From IMG/VR virus record IMGVR_UViG_3300046724_000480, positions 1 through 64,000 of that record: a stretch of DNA of 64,000 bases. One strand, written 5' to 3'. Positions 757 through 58,150 of the stretch are shown here, in pieces. Each line of letters opens with the position of its first letter. Position 1 is the first letter of the stretch. The stretch comes from a virus. The notes beneath the pieces are model-generated. The model saw only the letters and a program-made list of their open reading frames with translations. It had not been told where the DNA came from and made no database searches. A program made the translations under genes and the position numbers.

Positions 757-1157
757 TACCAGAGCTCCTCGGTGTAACGGAATCCCTGGAAGCCGCGACG
801 CAACATCTTCTCCGGCGGCCGGCTGACCGGTGGCGTGCACGCAACCCAGTACTTCGGATTCCGGATGGATTCATCCCAGCACTTCCGGGCTTCTCCCGGT
901 TCATAGCCGGCGATGTTCAGCCGTAGATCAATCTCTCCGTCGATGATCAGGTAGATGTGAAGCACGTCGAACTTCGGCATGGCCTGGAGGGCAATGTAGA
1001 TCGCATCCAGTTTGCCGGCCTCGAGGAGCTTTATGGATTGCTGGTAGCGCTTGGCGCCGATCGAGCGCGTGGGCGAACCATAGAGGCTGGGGAGTGTCCG
1101 AATGATTCCCGTTGGCCTTTCACTCTCGCGGCCGCGTACTGTGCCGTCTTTTGTCAT
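756..1157 (-). CDS. Hypothetical protein, 133 aa
   Basis: The frame has an ATGA overlap with the upstream gene. A hydrophobic stretch around residues 64-73 (VLHIYLIIDG) is too short and mixed for a membrane span and looks like the core strand of a small alpha/beta domain; the C-terminus is basic and aromatic. No catalytic motif is evident and I do not recognise the family. It lies inside the leftward operon between two small genes. Confidence 0.75.
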   Translation of the reverse strand: MTKDGTVRGRESERPTGIIRTLPSLYGSPTRSIGAKRYQQSIKLLEAGKLDAIYIALQAMPKFDVLHIYLIIDGEIDLRLNIAGYEPGEARKCWDESIRNPKYWVACTPPVSRPPEKMLRRGFQGFRYTEELW

Positions 1158-1312
1158 TTGCCTATCCAGTGGATCCGGATCCGCGTCCAGTCAATGAGCC
1201 TGCCAATGCGATAGAACCAGACGAACTCGAGGGCCCGGTTGGCCGTTGCTGGTTCATAGCGCTTCAGCAGCTTTTCAATCCTGCACGCGAGGGTTACCGC
1301 ATCCGGTTTCAT
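1154..1312 (-). CDS. Hypothetical protein, 52 aa
   Basis: The start at 1312 (MKPDAVTLACRIEKLL) is chosen because it gives an ATGA overlap with the 236-aa gene upstream; the longer open frame to 1483 lies antiparallel in frame to that gene and has shadow-like composition. The protein is short, basic and aromatic (residues WFYRIGRLIDW). Function unknown. Confidence 0.65.
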   Translation of the reverse strand: MKPDAVTLACRIEKLLKRYEPATANRALEFVWFYRIGRLIDWTRIRIHWIGK

Positions 1313-2019
1313 TTCCGTTTCTTGTGCCTTCGGTTGATGTGGCTCGTATCTCGCCGATCGTCCTCGGGCTCGTCTTTGACGCCGGCGGCCGCTTTGACTC
1401 GAGCTTCGGCTTCGGCCGGGGTTTCCTGTTTGTGGATGAACTTGATCTCGCCTACCGCCCGGCCCTTCAGGCACTTCTCGCAAAGGAACGTTTCTTCCGA
1501 GTCGATCGCAACGGCCGGATCCTCGCAGTACTCGCAGATCGGTTCCTCTCCGGTTGGCAGCTCGCGCTGCATGGTTTCAAACGTGAGGAACACTTTCCGT
1601 TTGAAATACTTCCCCATCATCGAGAACGACAGATCGTCTTTGGGCAGCTCGGCCTGGAAGATCAGCGAGAATTTCGGATCCCCAGGGAATAGCTTTCGCG
1701 CGCTGATGCTGGAAATCTGGACGGCCTTGAGCATTACGCCGTGGTCTTCCATCTTCGGATCGTCGACTGGATACATCATCATCGTCTGCAGGTCGACGGT
1801 ACCGATATCGAAGTTAACCGATTCGATTTCGCTGATCGGTTGCGGTGTTCCGGACGCATCGGGCTTGAACAGGCGATCGGCCATCGCCAGCGATACTTCG
1901 CACGCCAGCACGTGAGGGATCGGCGTGATGTAAATCAGGAACCGGACCATCTGATCGTCCTCTTTTCCCTCGAGGGACGCCTTCTGGATAAACGCGGCAA
2001 CTTTCTCTGTTTTGAACAT
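1309..2019 (-). CDS. Zinc-ribbon-containing phage protein, 236 aa
   Basis: The first ~150 residues form a mixed alpha/beta region without recognised motifs. Around residues 162-184 there is a CEYC...CEKC zinc ribbon, then a basic tail (HINRRHKKRK). The zinc ribbon and tail suggest nucleic-acid contact (inference). It is spaced from its upstream neighbour by nine bases with GGAG before the start. No named family recognised. Confidence 0.75.
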   Translation of the reverse strand: MFKTEKVAAFIQKASLEGKEDDQMVRFLIYITPIPHVLACEVSLAMADRLFKPDASGTPQPISEIESVNFDIGTVDLQTMMMYPVDDPKMEDHGVMLKAVQISSISARKLFPGDPKFSLIFQAELPKDDLSFSMMGKYFKRKVFLTFETMQRELPTGEEPICEYCEDPAVAIDSEETFLCEKCLKGRAVGEIKFIHKQETPAEAEARVKAAAGVKDEPEDDRRDTSHINRRHKKRK

Positions 2020-2028
2020 TCTTCTCCT

Positions 2029-2478
2029 TTACGATTCGGTCGGTGCGGGTAGCAGTTTCTGAATGCCGGCCGACAGCGCTCGTTTGTAGAGCGATTCCTT
2101 CGGACCGGTCTGGACGTAGGCAAACATCACTTCACCAGGTTCTACCATTCCGGTTTCGATCATCGCGACTTGAATGAGAACCCAACGATAGACCTGGCGC
2201 CATGCGACGCGTTTGGCTTGGGAACGATCCCTGGCTTCGTCTTTGTTGAACCGGTTGGCGTGCATGATCTTGTAGATCGGTTCCACGCGCGCCGGCAATT
2301 CAAACGGCATGCTCTTGCCGTCGACGTTCATTTTGAAGTACAGACCGGACGGCTCGCCGTCCTCGAATTCCGTCATGATCGACGTCGCGCCCATCCGGAT
2401 CAGATAAGTCTGAATCTCGGCGATCGACTGGACGGCCTCCACCTTTGTATTCACCATGTACAGATCCTTGCGCTTCAC
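2029..2478 (-). CDS. Conserved phage protein of unknown function, 149 aa
   Basis: The pattern GATSIMTEFEDG in the N-terminal third, followed by an FELPA segment, a basic QAKRVAWRQVYRWVL helix and a VMFAYV strand, matches from memory a common uncharacterised family in early phage operons. The start at 2478 overlaps the previous stop (ATGA); an internal Met at 2457 is an alternative. No enzymatic motif is seen. Confidence 0.75.
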   Translation of the reverse strand: MKRKDLYMVNTKVEAVQSIAEIQTYLIRMGATSIMTEFEDGEPSGLYFKMNVDGKSMPFELPARVEPIYKIMHANRFNKDEARDRSQAKRVAWRQVYRWVLIQVAMIETGMVEPGEVMFAYVQTGPKESLYKRALSAGIQKLLPAPTES

Positions 2479-2726
2479 TTCTTCTCTCCAGTCTTTGCCG
2501 GCAGCTGGGCCTGTTTCGATCGCGGCATGAACAACTGACTACTGGCCGCCTCTCCAGTGACCTCGAGGAACTTCACTTCGACTTTCGCGGATTCGATGAT
2601 CTGGCTGGCAACTTCGGACACCGCGCGCGCTCGATCGATCTCCATCGGCTTCTCTTCATCGCGGAGGGCCTCGAGGGTTTCGAACAGGTGATCGCGTAAA
2701 TCTTCAAGACTGTTTTTGGCTGGCAT
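2475..2726 (-). CDS. Conserved small phage protein, 83 aa
   Basis: The pattern LRDHLFETLEALRDEE followed by RARAVSEVASQIIESAKVEVKFL fits a small helical protein family seen in many phage early regions, with no assigned function. It overlaps the 3' end of the HNH gene by 23 bases. The conserved residues suggest a DNA-metabolism accessory protein, but that is inference. Confidence 0.75.
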   Translation of the reverse strand: MPAKNSLEDLRDHLFETLEALRDEEKPMEIDRARAVSEVASQIIESAKVEVKFLEVTGEAASSQLFMPRSKQAQLPAKTGEKK

Positions 2727-3381
2727 CGTTCTTCACCCTTTTTCGTATTGCTCGCTTCACACGGCCGGCAAGCTGGATTGTGTCCTTCAGCTCCGGCGGT
2801 AGATTGTGGATCGTGGTTCGCCGCATGTGCTCTTTGTCGGTGAGCAGCTCCAGGTTCTCGAGTTTGTTGTTGGTGTGGTCTTTGTCCCTCCACCAGATTC
2901 GATGGCCCGGAGCAATGGGACCGTAGGCCGCTTCCCATACGCGCCGGTGCACGAACTCCCAGTTTTTCGAAGCGGCGCCCTTCTGTCCGGCCGGCTCCGG
3001 AGCATCGCTCACTTTGATTCGTAGGTATCCATCGGCGTTCGCTTTGATCGTTCCTACCGGCAGGATGTTCTTCGGCGACTGGCCCTTCCGGAACTGGGTT
3101 TCGCGCATGCGGCCAACGGACCAACCTGGTCGACGCATTCCTTTGTTGGGAGGGTACTGTCCTTTAACAAACTGAGTCTCTTTCCCGATCTGACTGCCTT
3201 TCTGCATACGGCAAAACTTTGCGAGAAACTCTTCGGATTTCGCGGTTCCAATCTTCTTCGCCTGGCCGTAGGTGGCGCACTTGCTTCGCCCGAGCAGCGT
3301 GGCGATCTCCTCGGTAGGATGATCCGGATACAGCTTGAACAGTTTCCGGTTGTCGTCGTCGGTCCATACGCGGCCGTTCAT
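2704..3381 (-). CDS. HNH homing-type endonuclease
   Basis: The start at 3381 (MNGRVWTDDDNRKLF) gives an ATGA overlap with the gene upstream. The N-terminal ~50 residues look like a Myb/SANT-type helix-turn-helix (WTDDDNRKLFKLYPDHPTEEIATLLGRS). The C-terminal half has the HNH signature: HRRVWEAAYGP, then GHRIWWRDKDHTNNKLENLELL, i.e. the H, the N and the NLE helix of HNH nucleases. The middle holds repeated QFxKGQ-like segments as in DNA-binding linkers of homing enzymes. It is an intact free-standing gene within the operon and may be a mobile homing endonuclease or a packaging-type nuclease. No intron is seen around it. Confidence 0.85.
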   Translation of the reverse strand: MNGRVWTDDDNRKLFKLYPDHPTEEIATLLGRSKCATYGQAKKIGTAKSEEFLAKFCRMQKGSQIGKETQFVKGQYPPNKGMRRPGWSVGRMRETQFRKGQSPKNILPVGTIKANADGYLRIKVSDAPEPAGQKGAASKNWEFVHRRVWEAAYGPIAPGHRIWWRDKDHTNNKLENLELLTDKEHMRRTTIHNLPPELKDTIQLAGRVKRAIRKRVKNDASQKQS

Positions 3382-3659
3382 GCAACCACCGATGCGCCGA
3401 ACTTGAATCGGTTTCCGTTGTTGCGCCAGCTGTTGAAGTGCGGACGGCACAGATCGATTTCATTTCCGATGTTGTTGCGGCAGTCGTTACACATCCAGGT
3501 ATCGCAGGTGCCCTTTCGGTTGTTGCGCAGCACCGGGTTGTCACATTGAAACTCGGCGATCGCAGTGCAGTAGAAGCAACGGTGCTTGCTCCTCTTGCCC
3601 CGGCCACCACAGAGGATCCCGGTGGTTCCGTCTGGGAAACGGACAGTAGCGCAGCCCAT
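3378..3659 (-). CDS. Multi-cysteine zinc-binding phage protein
   Basis: The 93-aa protein has cysteine groups CFYC, QCDN, CDTWMCNDC and LCRPHF, enough for two zinc sites. This layout matches a recurrent small phage zinc protein whose function is not established. The stop overlaps the HNH gene start by four bases; the start shares one base with the next gene's stop. Confidence 0.75.
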   Translation of the reverse strand: MGCATVRFPDGTTGILCGGRGKRSKHRCFYCTAIAEFQCDNPVLRNNRKGTCDTWMCNDCRNNIGNEIDLCRPHFNSWRNNGNRFKFGASVVA

Positions 3660-4129
3660 CAGTTCTGATCGTCTCCTTCGCCGATGGTTCCCAAGAACGC
3701 CTTGACTTCATCGTCGATCGTCGTCATCAGCGCGATCGCCCTGTCTTCGTCTTTGCTCGAGGACTTGACGATGAGCTCGAACATCGAGACGCATCCCATA
3801 TAGAACGCGCGACGGGTTTCTTTGATCTGTGTGAGAGTGGCATCTCGAGGCAGGATCTTCCGGTAGATCGCCCACAGATTCGCGAGCGGATGCGCGGACA
3901 TTTTCTCTTCTGTGCTCACCGGTCCGCACCTGGAACAGAGACCAATTCCGGTTTTGCGATTGACCGATATCCACGAGCAGCCGCCCTCACAAGCGTTCGA
4001 ATCTGTACATCCGCATATCTCACACGTGCATTCGAGAACGTCAGCCACCAGAGATCGCGGCTTTCGCGCGGCGCGGATCGATTGTTTCGAAATCCGAGGT
4101 TTGACGATTGGGTGATCGGTGTTTGCCAT
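3659..4129 (-). CDS. Two-part protein: zinc ribbon plus helical phage domain
   Basis: Residues ~34-70 hold a CEICGCTDSNAC...GLCSRC zinc motif known from small stand-alone phage proteins. From residue 77 (MSAHPLANLWAIYRK) a helical domain follows with RRAFYMGCVSMFELI, which also resembles a separate common phage protein. Here both are in one 156-aa frame, so this looks like a fusion. An internal start at residue 77 could still make the second half separately. Function unknown. Confidence 0.7.
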   Translation of the reverse strand: MANTDHPIVKPRISKQSIRAARKPRSLVADVLECTCEICGCTDSNACEGGCSWISVNRKTGIGLCSRCGPVSTEEKMSAHPLANLWAIYRKILPRDATLTQIKETRRAFYMGCVSMFELIVKSSSKDEDRAIALMTTIDDEVKAFLGTIGEGDDQN

Positions 4130-4130
4130 T

Positions 4131-4319
4131 TCACATTTTCTCCTTCGCCCTGGCTTCCCTGGCCTTCACGGCCTGGGGACACTGGCCGTACGGCGTCTGT
4201 GTGGATTTGTGGCGCGTGTTGAGTCCACCAGGTTGTTGCGCCTCGATCGTCATCAGGCAGAATCCGCAGGCGCCGACGTCCTGCCACTTCACGGTAGATT
4301 GCGCTTCTGGCATTTTCAT
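4131..4319 (-). CDS. Small cysteine-containing protein, 62 aa
   Basis: The start at 4319 (MKMPEAQSTVKW) is set by an ATGA overlap with the exonuclease gene; the longer open frame to 4619 is its antiparallel shadow. Residues around CGFC and the later GQCPQA cysteine suggest a metal site. The C-terminus is a charged helix. Unknown function. Confidence 0.65.
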   Translation of the reverse strand: MKMPEAQSTVKWQDVGACGFCLMTIEAQQPGGLNTRHKSTQTPYGQCPQAVKAREARAKEKM

Positions 4320-4912
4320 GTGAGCTCCACTTCCAGGCCGAGATTCGAAAGCGACTTCGTCAGAAACAGAAAGATGCGCATCGTCAGATCGATGTCGTAC
4401 ATCGCATCGTGCGCCTTGGCCTCGTCGACGTCGACCTGGAGGAAGTGCGCAACCTGCGTCAGTCTGAAGTTGACCATCTCGTGCCGGCGCGGCGCCAGCT
4501 GCAGCCCGGCCAGCTTCGACACATCCAGAATCGGGTACCAGAACCACGAACCGAAATACGGATCCCCGTTCTTCTCGAAGAACTCCCTCACAAAGTCGGC
4601 GTCGAAATCCGCGTTCCAACCGGTGAAGTGCATCTTGTCCTGGCGGTGGTACCGATCGCAGTGCTTCGAAATGATGTCGATGAATTGGCGATAGGCCGCC
4701 TTCGGAGTCTGGTAGCTGCGAATGATCATTTCGGTCAGACCGTTCACGGCCAGCGCTTCGGCGTCGATGACGTCGTCGGGAAACGGCGCCGCGGTAATAT
4801 TGAACGTCTCGACGATCTTGCCGTCGATCACGATCTTGCCGGCGAACTGGATCAGGCCGTGCTTTTTCTTGTCAACGCCTGTGGTTTCGCAGTCGATGAA
4901 ACAAAACTTCAT
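4316..4912 (-). CDS. DnaQ-like DEDDh 3'-5' exonuclease
   Basis: The 198-aa protein shows the three exonuclease motifs of the DEDDh family: Exo I FIDCETTG (D7, E9), Exo II NADFDADF (residues 100-107) and Exo III H168-x4-D173 (HDAMYD). These residues bind two metal ions and remove nucleotides from 3' ends. The start at 4912 gives an ATGA overlap with the preceding gene; the frame extends upstream but without a ribosome site. No DNA polymerase is in the window, so it may assist host proofreading, RNA turnover or recombination. Confidence 0.9.
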   Translation of the reverse strand: MKFCFIDCETTGVDKKKHGLIQFAGKIVIDGKIVETFNITAAPFPDDVIDAEALAVNGLTEMIIRSYQTPKAAYRQFIDIISKHCDRYHRQDKMHFTGWNADFDADFVREFFEKNGDPYFGSWFWYPILDVSKLAGLQLAPRRHEMVNFRLTQVAHFLQVDVDEAKAHDAMYDIDLTMRIFLFLTKSLSNLGLEVELT

Positions 4913-5145
4913 TTGGACTTCCCTCCTTTGGTCAGCTGCCGTTTCGCGATGATGTCGGAGAGCCACTTCAACTGGCCGATGGAAACGTAAGTGTTCTCGT
5001 ACCGGCGGTTGAATCGCGGGATCTGATCGTTGAAGAATTCCGCGGACTTGATGACCTTGAACACGGCGCCGGCCGCGAGCTTCTTTTGAATCAACTGGAA
5101 CAGCCGATACCCTTCGATCGATCGTTCCTGATCTGTCATCGGCAT
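4909..5145 (-). CDS. Hypothetical protein, 78 aa
   Basis: A basic, helical small protein, MPMTDQERSIEGYRLFQL at its start and QLKWLSDIIAKRQ near the end. AAGG lies seven bases before the 5145 ATG; the second Met at 5139 is also possible. It is the first gene after a leftward terminator, so it may open a second transcript leading into the exonuclease gene. No family recognised. Confidence 0.65.
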   Translation of the reverse strand: MPMTDQERSIEGYRLFQLIQKKLAAGAVFKVIKSAEFFNDQIPRFNRRYENTYVSIGQLKWLSDIIAKRQLTKGGKSK

Positions 5146-5201
5146 AATTGAACCTTAAAGGATCGGCCGGAGTCCTTGCCTGAGCCCTCCGGCTTCTCCT
5201 G

Positions 5202-5226
5202 AAAACACCGCAGACATCCCGCGGTG
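5202..5226 (-). terminator. Rho-independent-type terminator, leftward
   Basis: Read on the minus strand there is a CACCGC/GCGGTG stem with a nine-base loop followed by TTTTC. It lies in the 106-bp gap after the HAD phosphatase gene. A second hairpin (TCCGGC/GCCGGA arms at about 5165-5193) follows. Together they could reduce read-through into 4909-5145. Confidence 0.55.
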
Positions 5227-5251
5227 ATCCCCTCCTTGGCAGTGGGGGATA

Positions 5252-5764
5252 TCAAGTTGCTGTAGCTCGCCAATCCTTGGACCACATGAACTTCAGCCCG
5301 GCGTTCTCTGCGCACTGGCGATCCTCGTCGCGATCGCCAACAAACAAACCGAATGCCGGCGGATAGTACTCGTTGGTGTAACTGGCCAGACCTAACATCG
5401 TCTCGACGATCATCCCAATGCGCGGCTTTCGGCACCAGCACTGGGCCATTTCCGCGTCGCGTGCCTGGGGATGATGACGACACCAGGCGATCTTGTCGAA
5501 GAGACGTTCGCAGAGCTCATGCGTGCGCAGCATCGTCGCGGCGCATTGCTCCAGGGTGAAGTGTCCCAGAGCAATCCCGCCCTGATTGCTGATGCCGACG
5601 ATCCGGTGACCTTCGGCTTTTGCTTTTCGCATCAGGACCAGCGCCTCTGGGAAGATGATCACGTCATCGGGCGTGTTCACGAAACGGCCCAGCTCGTCGA
5701 AGCCGTGGCGCACGGTACCGTCGAGATCCAGGTACAGAACTGGAGTTGGCGAATCCATGCTCAT
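5252..5764 (-). CDS. HAD-superfamily phosphatase (HisB-N/GmhB type)
   Basis: Motif I is DLDGT at residues 13-17 with the catalytic Asp pair; SNQGG (about 59-63) is the motif II region; VGDRDED (142-148) is motif IV. Between them a C-x-H-H...C-x-C-R-K-P segment (residues 95-114) matches the zinc-binding loop of histidinol-phosphate and heptose-bisphosphate phosphatases; polynucleotide 3'-phosphatases share the fold. The enzyme removes phosphate from a small sugar or nucleic-acid end. The sugar role would fit the glycosyltransferase cassette, the end-repair role would fit neighbouring nucleases; the sequence alone does not decide. Confidence 0.85.
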   Translation of the reverse strand: MSMDSPTPVLYLDLDGTVRHGFDELGRFVNTPDDVIIFPEALVLMRKAKAEGHRIVGISNQGGIALGHFTLEQCAATMLRTHELCERLFDKIAWCRHHPQARDAEMAQCWCRKPRIGMIVETMLGLASYTNEYYPPAFGLFVGDRDEDRQCAENAGLKFMWSKDWRATAT

Positions 5765-6972
5765 GCTCCCAGCGTTCCCTGTTCTTCGGGCTCGCCCTTC
5801 TTCTTGCGCTTCTTCGGTTCGGCGGCCGGCTTCTCTACTTTCGGAACCTCCGGCTTCACATCCTGAACGCGTACCAGGCTGACGGAGAACTGGCCTTTGG
5901 GATTGTCGGTGGTATAGCCGGCCACGACGGCTTCGTACGCGATCGTGGCAGCATTGAACTTCGCCTGATCAGCTTCCGGAACAGCGAGCTCTTTCTTCTT
6001 CTTCCACTTCCCGGAGATCACCAGGCCACCGACGATACCGGTTTCCACGCCGCGGAACTGTTGGCCCTTCCACTTGTCCAGCTTGCTATACTCACTCCAT
6101 TCCTCGTCCGACATCTTGCGCTCGAGCTCATTGAAGCGCTCGGCCTTCTGCACCACTTCCGGATCCGTGAATACCTGGGCGCCTTCGCCGAACGTCATCG
6201 GCGGATTGCAATTACGGCCGAAATGGGGACAGAACTTGCATTCCTCTTTGTCCTGGATGAAGTCCGGCAGTGTGCCGGCTTCCTTGTGGTCCATCGCAAT
6301 TTCAGCTTTCTCGAGAAACTTTTCCATCTTGTCAAGATTCGGATAGAGCTCCACCGGTATCAACGCCGGCAGTCCGCTACGATCGAGCAGGAAGAATCCC
6401 AAGGGTACGTTCTCTGCGAAGATGTAGGACAGCAATTGGTAGGCACCGGCTCGAGTCCAGCGGCTCTTGAACAGATCCTCGAATACGTCGATGTGCGCAA
6501 CCAACTGTGCACTCCAGGCCTTGGCCTCGATCGGAGTACTCCGCTGTCCGTGCAGGAACTTCAGGTTCTTGTAATCGCGGAACACCAGACGGCCGTCGAT
6601 CTTGCCGGTGATGCACACGCGCCCTTTCTTGTCCCGTATCTCGAACCGTTCCTGTTCGCCAGCCACTTCGAACGACGGTTCGGAATTACGGCCGACTTTC
6701 TTCAAGTCGGCCATTAGGTCACGTTCCCGATCATTTCCACGACGAAAGCGCGCAAGGGTATCGGCATCGAAGCCGGGCAGCGTGTCGCCGTGGGTCATAT
6801 CGAGAACCATCTGGCGTGTGCACTCCCGGTAGGCCGATGCGTAGACGTTGTTACGCTTGGACATTGGCCGCGAGTCCTGATTCATGAACTGGGCCCACGC
6901 CGTTTCAATGGCCTGTCCCATCTGAACCGCGGTCATCTCTTCGGGCTTGACGATCTTCTCTTCCGTGCTCAT
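5761..6972 (-). CDS. Cas4-like PD-(D/E)XK nuclease with Fe-S cysteines
   Basis: The 403-aa protein has GKID (D126) and IEAK (E149, K151), the D...ExK core of RecB-family nucleases, and a later AYQLLSY helix. Four cysteines are placed as in Cas4/AddB iron-sulphur enzymes: C51 near the N-terminus and C245, C248, C255 (ECKFCPHFGRNC) after the core. The C-terminal 150 residues are an extra domain ending in a Lys/Pro tail (AEPKKRKKKGEPEE). Such enzymes resect DNA ends from 5' or 3'. With the exonuclease and the 287-aa neighbour this looks like a phage recombination or DNA-processing set; no CRISPR genes are nearby. Confidence 0.88.
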   Translation of the reverse strand: MSTEEKIVKPEEMTAVQMGQAIETAWAQFMNQDSRPMSKRNNVYASAYRECTRQMVLDMTHGDTLPGFDADTLARFRRGNDRERDLMADLKKVGRNSEPSFEVAGEQERFEIRDKKGRVCITGKIDGRLVFRDYKNLKFLHGQRSTPIEAKAWSAQLVAHIDVFEDLFKSRWTRAGAYQLLSYIFAENVPLGFFLLDRSGLPALIPVELYPNLDKMEKFLEKAEIAMDHKEAGTLPDFIQDKEECKFCPHFGRNCNPPMTFGEGAQVFTDPEVVQKAERFNELERKMSDEEWSEYSKLDKWKGQQFRGVETGIVGGLVISGKWKKKKELAVPEADQAKFNAATIAYEAVVAGYTTDNPKGQFSVSLVRVQDVKPEVPKVEKPAAEPKKRKKKGEPEEQGTLGA

Positions 6973-56227: not shown

Positions 56228-56942
56228 CAGGTGCCCCATGTCCGAACATCTCGTAGTACTGCTTGGATCCAACCTTGCAGCCCCACTTTAGCTCGAAGGT
56301 GTACCGGTCCTTGTCGGCCTGTTCGGAGATTGAAGCTTTCTCGCCGGCCGTGGCGCTCTTCAACGTTCCGCTGGCGTAATGAAAGAACGGGATCCCGATC
56401 GTGTAGGCCTCGATGCCGGCTTTGTGCATCCGGACGTGATAGTCCGCGTCGGAGGCGTAGAGTCTCATTGTTTCGTCGAATGCACCGACTTTATCCCAAA
56501 CCGATTTGCGAAGCATGAAACAACTGAAGTCCGGATGTGGGCGCGGTGCTTTCGCCCAGTTGCCTTCGATTCCCTTTAGGTTGTCGACGCTGACGGCCGT
56601 CACAAACTCGCCACCGTCCTCGAGGAGCGATCGATAGGTGTCCGGCCGAAGAACCACGTCGTTGTTCACCACCAGAACGTGGTCTGCCTGGCGAAACGCG
56701 TTGACGATGGCAAAGTTCCATCCGGAGGAGACTCCCAGCGGCGGCCGGAAGGTTTCCAGGTGCGCAACGCAGGACTGCAGGAATTCGGTCGTGCCGTCCT
56801 GGCTGTCGTTGTCAACCACATGAAGCAGTGTCGGGATATCCTGTTCCATCACCGATCGGACCGCGTTCTTCGTCAACTGCAGGGCATTTCTGACCAGCAT
56901 CACCACCGGGTTCACATTGGAGTAGTCCAGTTCTCGTTTCAT
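56214..56942 (-). CDS. GT2-family glycosyltransferase (GT-A fold)
   Basis: Starts with NVNPVVMLVRNALQLTKNAVRSV, then VDNDSQDGTTEFL and VLVVNNDVVLRP, the nucleotide-sugar and DxD-like region of GT2 enzymes. 242 aa is typical for a single catalytic domain. It begins 12 bases after an AAGGAG and overlaps the preceding gene by 131 bases. Confidence 0.83.
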   Translation of the reverse strand: MKRELDYSNVNPVVMLVRNALQLTKNAVRSVMEQDIPTLLHVVDNDSQDGTTEFLQSCVAHLETFRPPLGVSSGWNFAIVNAFRQADHVLVVNNDVVLRPDTYRSLLEDGGEFVTAVSVDNLKGIEGNWAKAPRPHPDFSCFMLRKSVWDKVGAFDETMRLYASDADYHVRMHKAGIEAYTIGIPFFHYASGTLKSATAGEKASISEQADKDRYTFELKWGCKVGSKQYYEMFGHGAPDEKD

Positions 56943-57174
56943 TACGTTTCAATCTCTCCTTTTCGATATCGGCCTTAAACTTTTTGATGTCCTCGATTGC
57001 CTTCTCGAGCTTTGGCACTTCCGCTGGCTTGTACAGTTGAACGTCTGGTTTTAGGTATTCGAAGTAGTCCAGACAGGTGTCCGTCATCATGATCAGCCCG
57101 GCGCAGAAAACTTCGATCAGTTCCGCCGCGGCCTTCAGTTCGGCTTCTTTGATCACGCATTGTCCGCAGTTCAC
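56812..57174 (-). CDS. Hypothetical protein, 120 aa; neighbour of the inserted element
   Basis: GTG start at 57174 lying in the left copy of the 9-bp target duplication of the mobile element. First ~86 residues look coding (CVIKEAELKAAAELIEVFCAGLIMMTDTCLDYFEYL, then a helical Lys/Glu part); the last ~34 overlap the GT2 gene. Its start codon survives because of the target duplication. Not recognised. Confidence 0.6.
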   Translation of the reverse strand: MNCGQCVIKEAELKAAAELIEVFCAGLIMMTDTCLDYFEYLKPDVQLYKPAEVPKLEKAIEDIKKFKADIEKERLKRNETRTGLLQCEPGGDAGQKCPAVDEERGPIGDGTGYPDTASCG

Positions 57175-57175
57175 T
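57167..57175. repeat. Target-site duplication, left copy
   Basis: CAGTTCACT directly outside the left inverted repeat, identical to 57634-57642. Confidence 0.75.
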
Positions 57176-57633
57176 GGCTTTGCCTAATAATCATGGTTTG
57201 CCCAATAATTCAGTAAGGCCCCTCGGAATCCCGAGAGTGCGATCCGTGTAATACAGGGCTCGTTTTTCAAGTTCATGCCAGTAGTTAATGACTTCTTTGC
57301 ATTCACTTTTTGAGATCGGCTCTCTCTTCATCAGATCGATGATTCGATCCCGATTCAGTTCTCTGGAGATTTCCTCGAAAATCACCGCTTCACAGTAATT
57401 TCGGTAATGCCTCCCCTCATGTCCATAGAGTTTTCGGTAGGCATCTTCAGTTGAGCATCGCGGGGCCTCGCCTCGATATTTCGCAATAAAGGCATCGATT
57501 ACTCGCATGGCTAGAAGCCCAACTGAAAGGGCCTCCTTTCTCTGTCTTGACGGTGGCTTAGACCTGCAACACATTTAGCATTCTCCTATTTATTGGGCAA
57601 CCTCACGTTTTCCACAGTTTGTTGGGCAAAGCC
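57176..57633. mobile_element. 458-bp inserted element with terminal inverted repeats
   Basis: Ends GGCTTTGCCTAATAA (57176-57190) and TTGTTGGGCAAAGCC (57619-57633) are inverted repeats, 13 of 15 matching. A second, inner pair matches 11 of 11: TTGCCCAATAA (57198-57208) and TTATTGGGCAA (57590-57600). CAGTTCACT flanks both sides. Inside is one gene (57191-57574, minus). By eye it is more AT-rich than its surroundings. Deleting element plus one CAGTTCACT rejoins AAG-TGA of the methyltransferase with the GTG of the next gene as GTGA, the overlap used throughout this genome. No transposase is present, so it would be moved in trans or by its unrecognised protein. Confidence 0.75.
57191..57574 (-). 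CDS. 127-aa protein carried by the inserted element
   Basis: AGGAG eight bases before the ATG, inside the element. Sequence is Arg/Lys/Glu-rich: LAMRVIDAFIAKYRGEAPRC, YGHEGRHYRNYCEAVIFEEISRELNRD, then ELEKRALYYTDRTLGIPRG. No DDE, HUH, HNH or serine/tyrosine recombinase motif is apparent. The stop codon lies between the outer and inner left repeats, and the last residues (LLGKP) are coded by the inner repeat. Could be a very small mobility protein, a regulator or passenger; unknown. Confidence 0.7.
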   Translation of the reverse strand: MCCRSKPPSRQRKEALSVGLLAMRVIDAFIAKYRGEAPRCSTEDAYRKLYGHEGRHYRNYCEAVIFEEISRELNRDRIIDLMKREPISKSECKEVINYWHELEKRALYYTDRTLGIPRGLTELLGKP

Positions 57634-57642
57634 CAGTTCACT
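57634..57642. repeat. Target-site duplication, right copy
   Basis: CAGTTCACT outside the right inverted repeat, identical to 57167-57175; its TTCA contains the stop of the methyltransferase gene. Confidence 0.75.
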
Positions 57643-58150
57643 TGACTGCCTCCATCCCCAAAATCCATCGATCGTCACGGGCGATATCGGCGCCGGGGAT
57701 TGTGCGCCAGTCGAAGGGCCGGACTTCGCGAAAGTTTGCCGTTCGTGAGAGATATTCCCCCAGTCCCTGTTGCGAGAACCCCCAGCGGTGGCGGTCTGCT
57801 TCATCTCCCATGAACGCTCCATACACGTTGGTCATGTACAACTGTTCGGTGAGCTCCCCTCGCAACCACATATTGGCCAGTTTTCGCATTTCCGGCACGA
57901 ACACCAGAAGGCTCCCACCGACCTTGAGAACCCTGTAGGCTTCCGTCACGAAACCGCTCCCCTCGCCACAGCCGACGTGTTCCAGCGAATGGTGAGATAC
58001 GACAAGATCGACGCTGTTGTCCTCAAACGGCGTCAGATTGTTCCAGTGTCCCAGGACGTCTGGATTCCACCGGGGATTGATGTCTATGTTGCACCATCCC
58101 TGTTCCCTGTCGAAGGGTCGTTGACCGCTACCGCAGTTCAGTCCAATCAT
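57638..58150 (-). CDS. SAM-dependent methyltransferase (class I)
   Basis: Start at 58150 (MIGLNCGSGQRPF) from the ATGA overlap; the frame is open further without support. Motif I variant NCGSGQRPF, then NIDINPRW (acidic end of strand 2), DLVVSHHSLEHV (motif IV-like) and AYRVLKVGGSLLVFVPE (post-motif). 170 aa, small. Likely methylates a sugar or glycan precursor in this cassette. Confidence 0.82.
   Translation of the reverse strand: MIGLNCGSGQRPFDREQGWCNIDINPRWNPDVLGHWNNLTPFEDNSVDLVVSHHSLEHVGCGEGSGFVTEAYRVLKVGGSLLVFVPEMRKLANMWLRGELTEQLYMTNVYGAFMGDEADRHRWGFSQQGLGEYLSRTANFREVRPFDWRTIPGADIARDDRWILGMEAVK

Follow-up and report, generated by a model that had tools for sequence, protein, structure and literature searches.

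Mobile insertion cassettes (MICs) such as MIC231 of Bacillus cereus and mic-qnrD of the Proteeae consist of two inverted repeats around a passenger gene, lack a transposase and are flanked by a target duplication (PMC3913671). Their mobilization in trans by a full insertion sequence has been proposed or, for MIC231, reported; the partner of MIC231 is IS231A, of the IS4 family; the ends of mic-qnrD are 24 bp long and its duplication is 2 bp (PMC3913671). In the MITEAba12/ISAba12 system and its relatives, non-autonomous elements make 9-bp duplications: MITEAba12 is 113 bp long, holds no gene, has ends GGCTTTGTTGCAYAAA and is moved by a co-resident insertion sequence of ~1 kb with matching ends (PMC6382973). 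IS903B, a member of the IS5 family, has ends GGCTTTGTTGAATAAATC and also generates a 9-bp duplication (PMC10569121).

We analyzed a stretch of 64,000 nucleotides (the window), which covers positions 1 to 64,000 of the 64,281-base viral record IMGVR_UViG_3300046724_000480. Genes for the large subunit of the terminase and for a major head protein identify the window as part of a tailed phage. At positions 57176-57633 it contains a cassette of 458 bp with one 127-codon gene inside. Like MIC231 and mic-qnrD, this cassette has two inverted repeats around a passenger, no transposase and a target duplication; in contrast to them it has IS903-like ends whose inner sites are iterated, its duplication is 9 bp long, it lies in a phage, and its passenger is of no known family. 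It shares with MITEAba12 the non-autonomous character and the 9-bp duplication, but its ends read GGCTTTGCCYAAYAA, each end has an extra inner copy, and it carries a gene. With IS903 it has in common the 7-bp tip GGCTTTG as well as the duplication length.

We conclude, with a probability of roughly 0.93, that this is a mobile insertion cassette which cannot move on its own and owes its transposition to an IS903-like transposase with a SWIM zinc finger and a DDE domain (SWIM-DDE) acting in trans, and that the passenger stands in the place of the transposase gene. The initial annotation had proposed that it may be a non-autonomous or previously undescribed mobility unit. The first half of that description stands. 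The second stands only in part: this class of object is already known from MIC231, mic-qnrD and MITEAba12, that is, from MICs and IS903-type MITEs, and what is new is the SWIM-transposase family, which we did not find in the literature searched, together with the iteration at the ends, the location in a phage and the passenger gene.

The Cassette and Its Insertion Site

The cassette is bounded by 15-bp terminal inverted repeats, GGCTTTGCCTAATAA at 57176-57190 (+ strand) and GGCTTTGCCCAACAA at 57619-57633 (- strand), which match at 13 of 15 bases and bear GGCTTTG tips at both ends. Inside them lies one inner copy per end, TTGCCCAATAA, at 57198-57208 on the + strand and at 57590-57600 on the - strand, with 11 of 11 bases matched. 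The 9-bp duplication CAGTTCACT is exact on both flanks, at 57167-57175 and 57634-57642. These repeats had all been pointed out in the initial annotation, and each was found as described.

The insertion lies between two co-oriented phage genes, both on the - strand: a methyltransferase gene (Methyltransf_11, 57638-58144) and a gene for a 120-aa protein (56812-57174). On this strand the duplicated sequence reads AGTGAACTG and includes both the stop of the methyltransferase, whose 3' end is ..GTC AAG TGA, and the start of the 120-aa gene, which opens GTG AAC TGC. With both codons, TGA and GTG, inside the duplicated 9 bp, the two neighbors stay intact: the first copy, at 57634-57642, terminates the methyltransferase with its stop codon intact, and the second, at 57167-57175, opens the 120-aa gene. 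When the cassette is removed in silico, the joined flanks ..GTCAAGTGAACTGCGG.. regain a GTGA stop/start overlap, as the initial annotation had described.

The cassette looks foreign to the phage, since its GC content is 47% against 56% for the window and the GC3 of the passenger gene is 0.48 against 0.65 +/- 0.06 for 34 larger ORFs. A transposase profile search of all 64 kb found no transposase gene in the window. We also scanned the whole window for exact 9-bp direct repeats flanking inverted ends that match at 12 or more of 15 bases, within 5 kb of each other. The cassette was the sole qualifying pair; in 200 randomized windows generated with a first-order Markov model, six such pairs arose in total (~0.03 per window). 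Taken alone this geometry is suggestive; the matching ends found elsewhere are decisive.

Matching Ends Belong to Complete Transposons

A pattern made of the left tip and one inner copy was searched in IMG/VR and GTDB contigs, and matched 3 stretches in the former and 36 in the latter, many of them by chance. A coherent subset, with TTGCCYAATAA-like copies iterated in twos or threes, comprises two viral contigs (L022, L023), five loci of Acidobacteriota (L033, L039, L040, L051, L057) and two of DPANN archaea (L025, L035). The left end sequence of the cassette recurs in L023, L025, L033, L039, L040, L051 and L057. A looser scan with the left end alone returned 119 stretches and zero new pairs.

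The element in L022 is complete. It measures 3345 bp, has GGCTTTGCCCAACAA at both tips, identical to the right terminal repeat of the cassette, and is flanked by an exact 9-bp duplication, ACCGGGGCC. Beside one end lies the gene for a 423-aa transposase with SWIM and DDE_Tnp_1 domains; the element further encodes an N6_N4 methyltransferase and a BglII-like endonuclease. A Woesearchaeota element spans two contigs, with the duplication CTCAAATTG common to both.

Two scans delimited further elements. The first, on viral loci around the transposase, required only a GG-leading tip and an 8-9-bp duplication, and found 11 complete elements, every one with an exact 9-bp duplication and GGCTTTG tips. 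The second scan added 11, of which ten lie in cellular genomes; as it was seeded with the tip, the conservation of the tip in this set is in part built in. The duplication of one of these (L291) matches at 8 of 9 positions and the others are exact. In all, we delimited 22 complete elements of 3345-7289 bp, from viral contigs as well as from Acidobacteriota and DPANN archaea; the 9-bp duplication is exact in 21. The end repeats of the cassette, which the initial annotation had proposed to search for in other genomes, thus occur there as the ends of transposase-bearing transposons.

DNA methyltransferase or restriction genes were observed in 14 of the 22 complete transposons (L198/L022, L207, L208, L210, L212, L213, L215, L291, L293, L294, L295, L303, L306 and L308). 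This restriction-modification cargo includes BglII-like, Mrr and HNH enzymes, an EcoRI methylase with GmrSD, type IIG enzymes with specificity domains, and C5 methylases.

Two other loci deserve mention. A solitary left-type end at L023:5804 (IMG/VR 3300044682_000088; L077/L078) is identical to the left end of the cassette at 30 of 33 positions and has inner copies at offsets 22 and 42; neither a mate nor a duplication was found in the 15 kb downstream, and the contig has no transposase. In addition, a ~5.3-kb stretch is common to four viral contigs (L205, L206, L218 and L221, where it spans 808-6115), with GGCTTTGCCTCATAA tips around the transposase and no matching duplication; its ends are possibly rearranged.

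End Architecture

We scored inner copies in the 44 ends of the 22 elements against each element's own core. Direct copies cluster at offsets 22 (14 of 44 ends) and 42 (8 of 44), and inverted copies at 33 (13 of 44) and 53 (9 of 44), whereas shuffled ends gave ~0.09 matches per end over all 44 offsets. In the cassette, the left inner copy is direct at offset 22 from its tip and the right one is direct at 33 from its own, both of them spacings of the family. One mismatch should be noted: the right-end copy of the cassette is direct, while in full elements the copy at 33 on the transposase side is in most cases inverted. At some ends of full elements the copies at offsets 33 and 53 are direct. 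Because tip, core, offsets and duplication length all agree, we assign the cassette to the SWIM-DDE family. Its inverted repeats match the ends of the SWIM-DDE transposons and bracket a passenger with no transposase inside, and its 9-bp duplication is as long as that of the partner elements, two traits expected of a MIC.

The Probable Partner Transposases

The partner transposases combine a SWIM zinc finger, whose N-terminal position was checked by Pfam on L022, with DDE_Tnp_1. Using a profile built from an alignment of six of them, we found 29 loci in viral contigs; among cellular genomes, 6 of the 297 from the Acidobacteriota-level group and 32 of the 237 from the archaeal phylum had the transposase. 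NF033579 is the best NCBIfam model both for these proteins and for IS903, with which they share a common DDE core. They score 103-126 bits on it, below the cut-off of 140, against 356 bits for the IS903 transposase, to which they are ~25% identical. From these comparisons they are best placed next to the IS903 branch of the IS5 family, as its sister group and not as members of it. Their elements differ from IS903 by the N-terminal SWIM finger, a size of 3.3-7.3 kb, the presence of cargo and the repeated inner sites. No published link between a SWIM finger and such a transposase was found in openly licensed papers, which is weak evidence of novelty. Just upstream of the transposase in L022 (7510-7737) and in L062, there seems to be a small CxxC zinc-ribbon-like frame, read by eye, that could encode an accessory protein.

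A possible course of events can be outlined. A full-length element, in the host or in a co-resident replicon, would provide the SWIM-DDE transposase in trans, and this enzyme would bind the iterated TTGCCNAAYAA sites, both terminal and subterminal. After cleavage at the GGCTTTG tips, it would link these to a target cut with a 9-bp stagger, and repair would yield the duplication. With the insertion placed at the stop/start overlap of two co-oriented phage genes, the passenger could be expressed from the phage operon via its own ribosome-binding site. The trans source, the biochemical steps and this expression are what we infer from the sequences. We know of no host genome carrying both the cassette and a SWIM-DDE transposase. 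The queries used recovered no second copy of the cassette from phages, plasmids, or contigs of IMG/VR and GTDB, so that a single insertion of this unit is known; a scan of IMG/VR also returned no element of near-equal size bearing both tips.

The Probable Passenger Gene

The passenger gene occupies 57191-57574 on the - strand, co-oriented with the phage operon. Its ORF is complete, fits between the end repeats, makes up 84% of the cassette, and is preceded by AGGAG 8 nt before the ATG. No homolog was found by tblastn in phages and plasmids, nor in IMG/VR and GTDB contigs by peptide patterns, a search sensitive to close relatives only, nor in the 24 records linked to the cassette ends. Among 299 Acidobacteriota-class genomes there were three borderline matches and no accepted homolog. 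The one that ranked highest on re-scoring, L075, runs antisense to a phosphatase-like ORF and was discarded.

Pfam, NCBIfam and PADLOC gave no match to the 127-aa protein. A single-sequence AlphaFold model (pLDDT 73, pTM 0.69) is all helical, and Foldseek found nothing better than E ~0.6 for it in PDB or BFVD. The protein is thus predicted to be an orphan helical protein. That it could be a transposase remnant was also considered, and was rejected, as it has no similarity to the transposase profile.

The best-surviving alternative concerns this gene. The unit could be a decayed internal-deletion derivative, that is, a plain MITE, whose ORF is fortuitous or a cargo remnant and not a functional passenger. 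The lack of any homolog would fit such an origin, as would the 18 of 2000 shuffles in which the length of the ORF was reached. Against it, one would rather expect broken frames in a decayed element, while here a complete frame with AGGAG upstream fills the space between the repeats and follows the direction of the operon. A MITE in the strict sense is short and has no coding capacity, a description that does not fit the cassette with its complete 127-codon ORF. We regard this origin as unlikely, though it is the most serious of the competing explanations. It touches the claim of a cargo only and leaves that of mobility unaffected. Because of the ribosome-binding site and the tight fit between the end repeats, the passenger is more likely a real gene than a fortuitous ORF, and this is the weakest part of our account.

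Far less probable is that the unit is an autonomous miniature element, whose ends would be acted upon by the 127-aa protein itself, a small transposase or recombinase of a new kind. This protein is the product of the only gene of the unit, which fills 84% of it, and it has one very weak match in PHROGs, to an 'integrase' family (E=0.028). However, the SWIM-DDE transposase accounts for the same ends and duplication length in 22 other elements, and we found no homolog of the 127-aa protein at the loci of the full elements delimited first. Nor does the protein match the SWIM-DDE transposase profile, any Pfam or NCBIfam model, or any fold.

The Same Junction in Related Phages

The initial annotation had suggested that relatives with an empty site should be looked for. 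Related phages were retrieved via the genes neighboring the cassette, and cassette-free relatives exist: the 15 related viral records have no DNA match to it. The methyltransferase junction is the anticipated GTGA in L003 and an ATGA overlap in L006 and L007, and that of L002 is unlike these overlaps. In L006 the gene that starts in the ATGA overlap with the methyltransferase is homologous to the 120-aa gene (38% over 61 aa, pairwise E=1e-9), and this junction is a homologous but divergent unoccupied site (~73% DNA identity).

The slot between the methyltransferase and a glycosyltransferase (56942-57640 in the window) is variable across these four phages. It holds a cysteine-rich gene of 147-152 aa in L002 and L003, an HNH-endonuclease-like gene of 260 aa in L007 and the homolog of the 120-aa gene in L006.

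Such variability is what one would expect if the passenger were a phage gene acquired by ordinary recombination, with no transposon involved and the repeats arising by chance, but this is the least probable explanation of all given the exact 9-bp duplication and the 13/15 ends, and it is contradicted by independent transposons in which ends, offsets and duplication length are those of the cassette.

Significance

As a mobile insertion cassette, the unit is a gene-carrying, transposase-free element of less than 500 bp that sits in a tailed-phage operon with its neighbors intact. Its tie to a definite transposase family makes trans-mobilization into phages directly testable.

More tentatively, these elements may belong to a largely undescribed family of SWIM and IS903-like DDE transposons, present in bacteria, DPANN archaea and viral contigs, that prefers restriction-modification cargo and spawns one-gene, transposase-free cassettes picked up by phages. 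If this is true, the 127-aa gene would be a selected passenger, for example a defense or counter-defense factor. The restriction-modification cargo of the full elements may be of more interest to readers than the cassette itself, as the SWIM-DDE family may be a general vehicle that spreads restriction-modification systems across bacteria and archaea.
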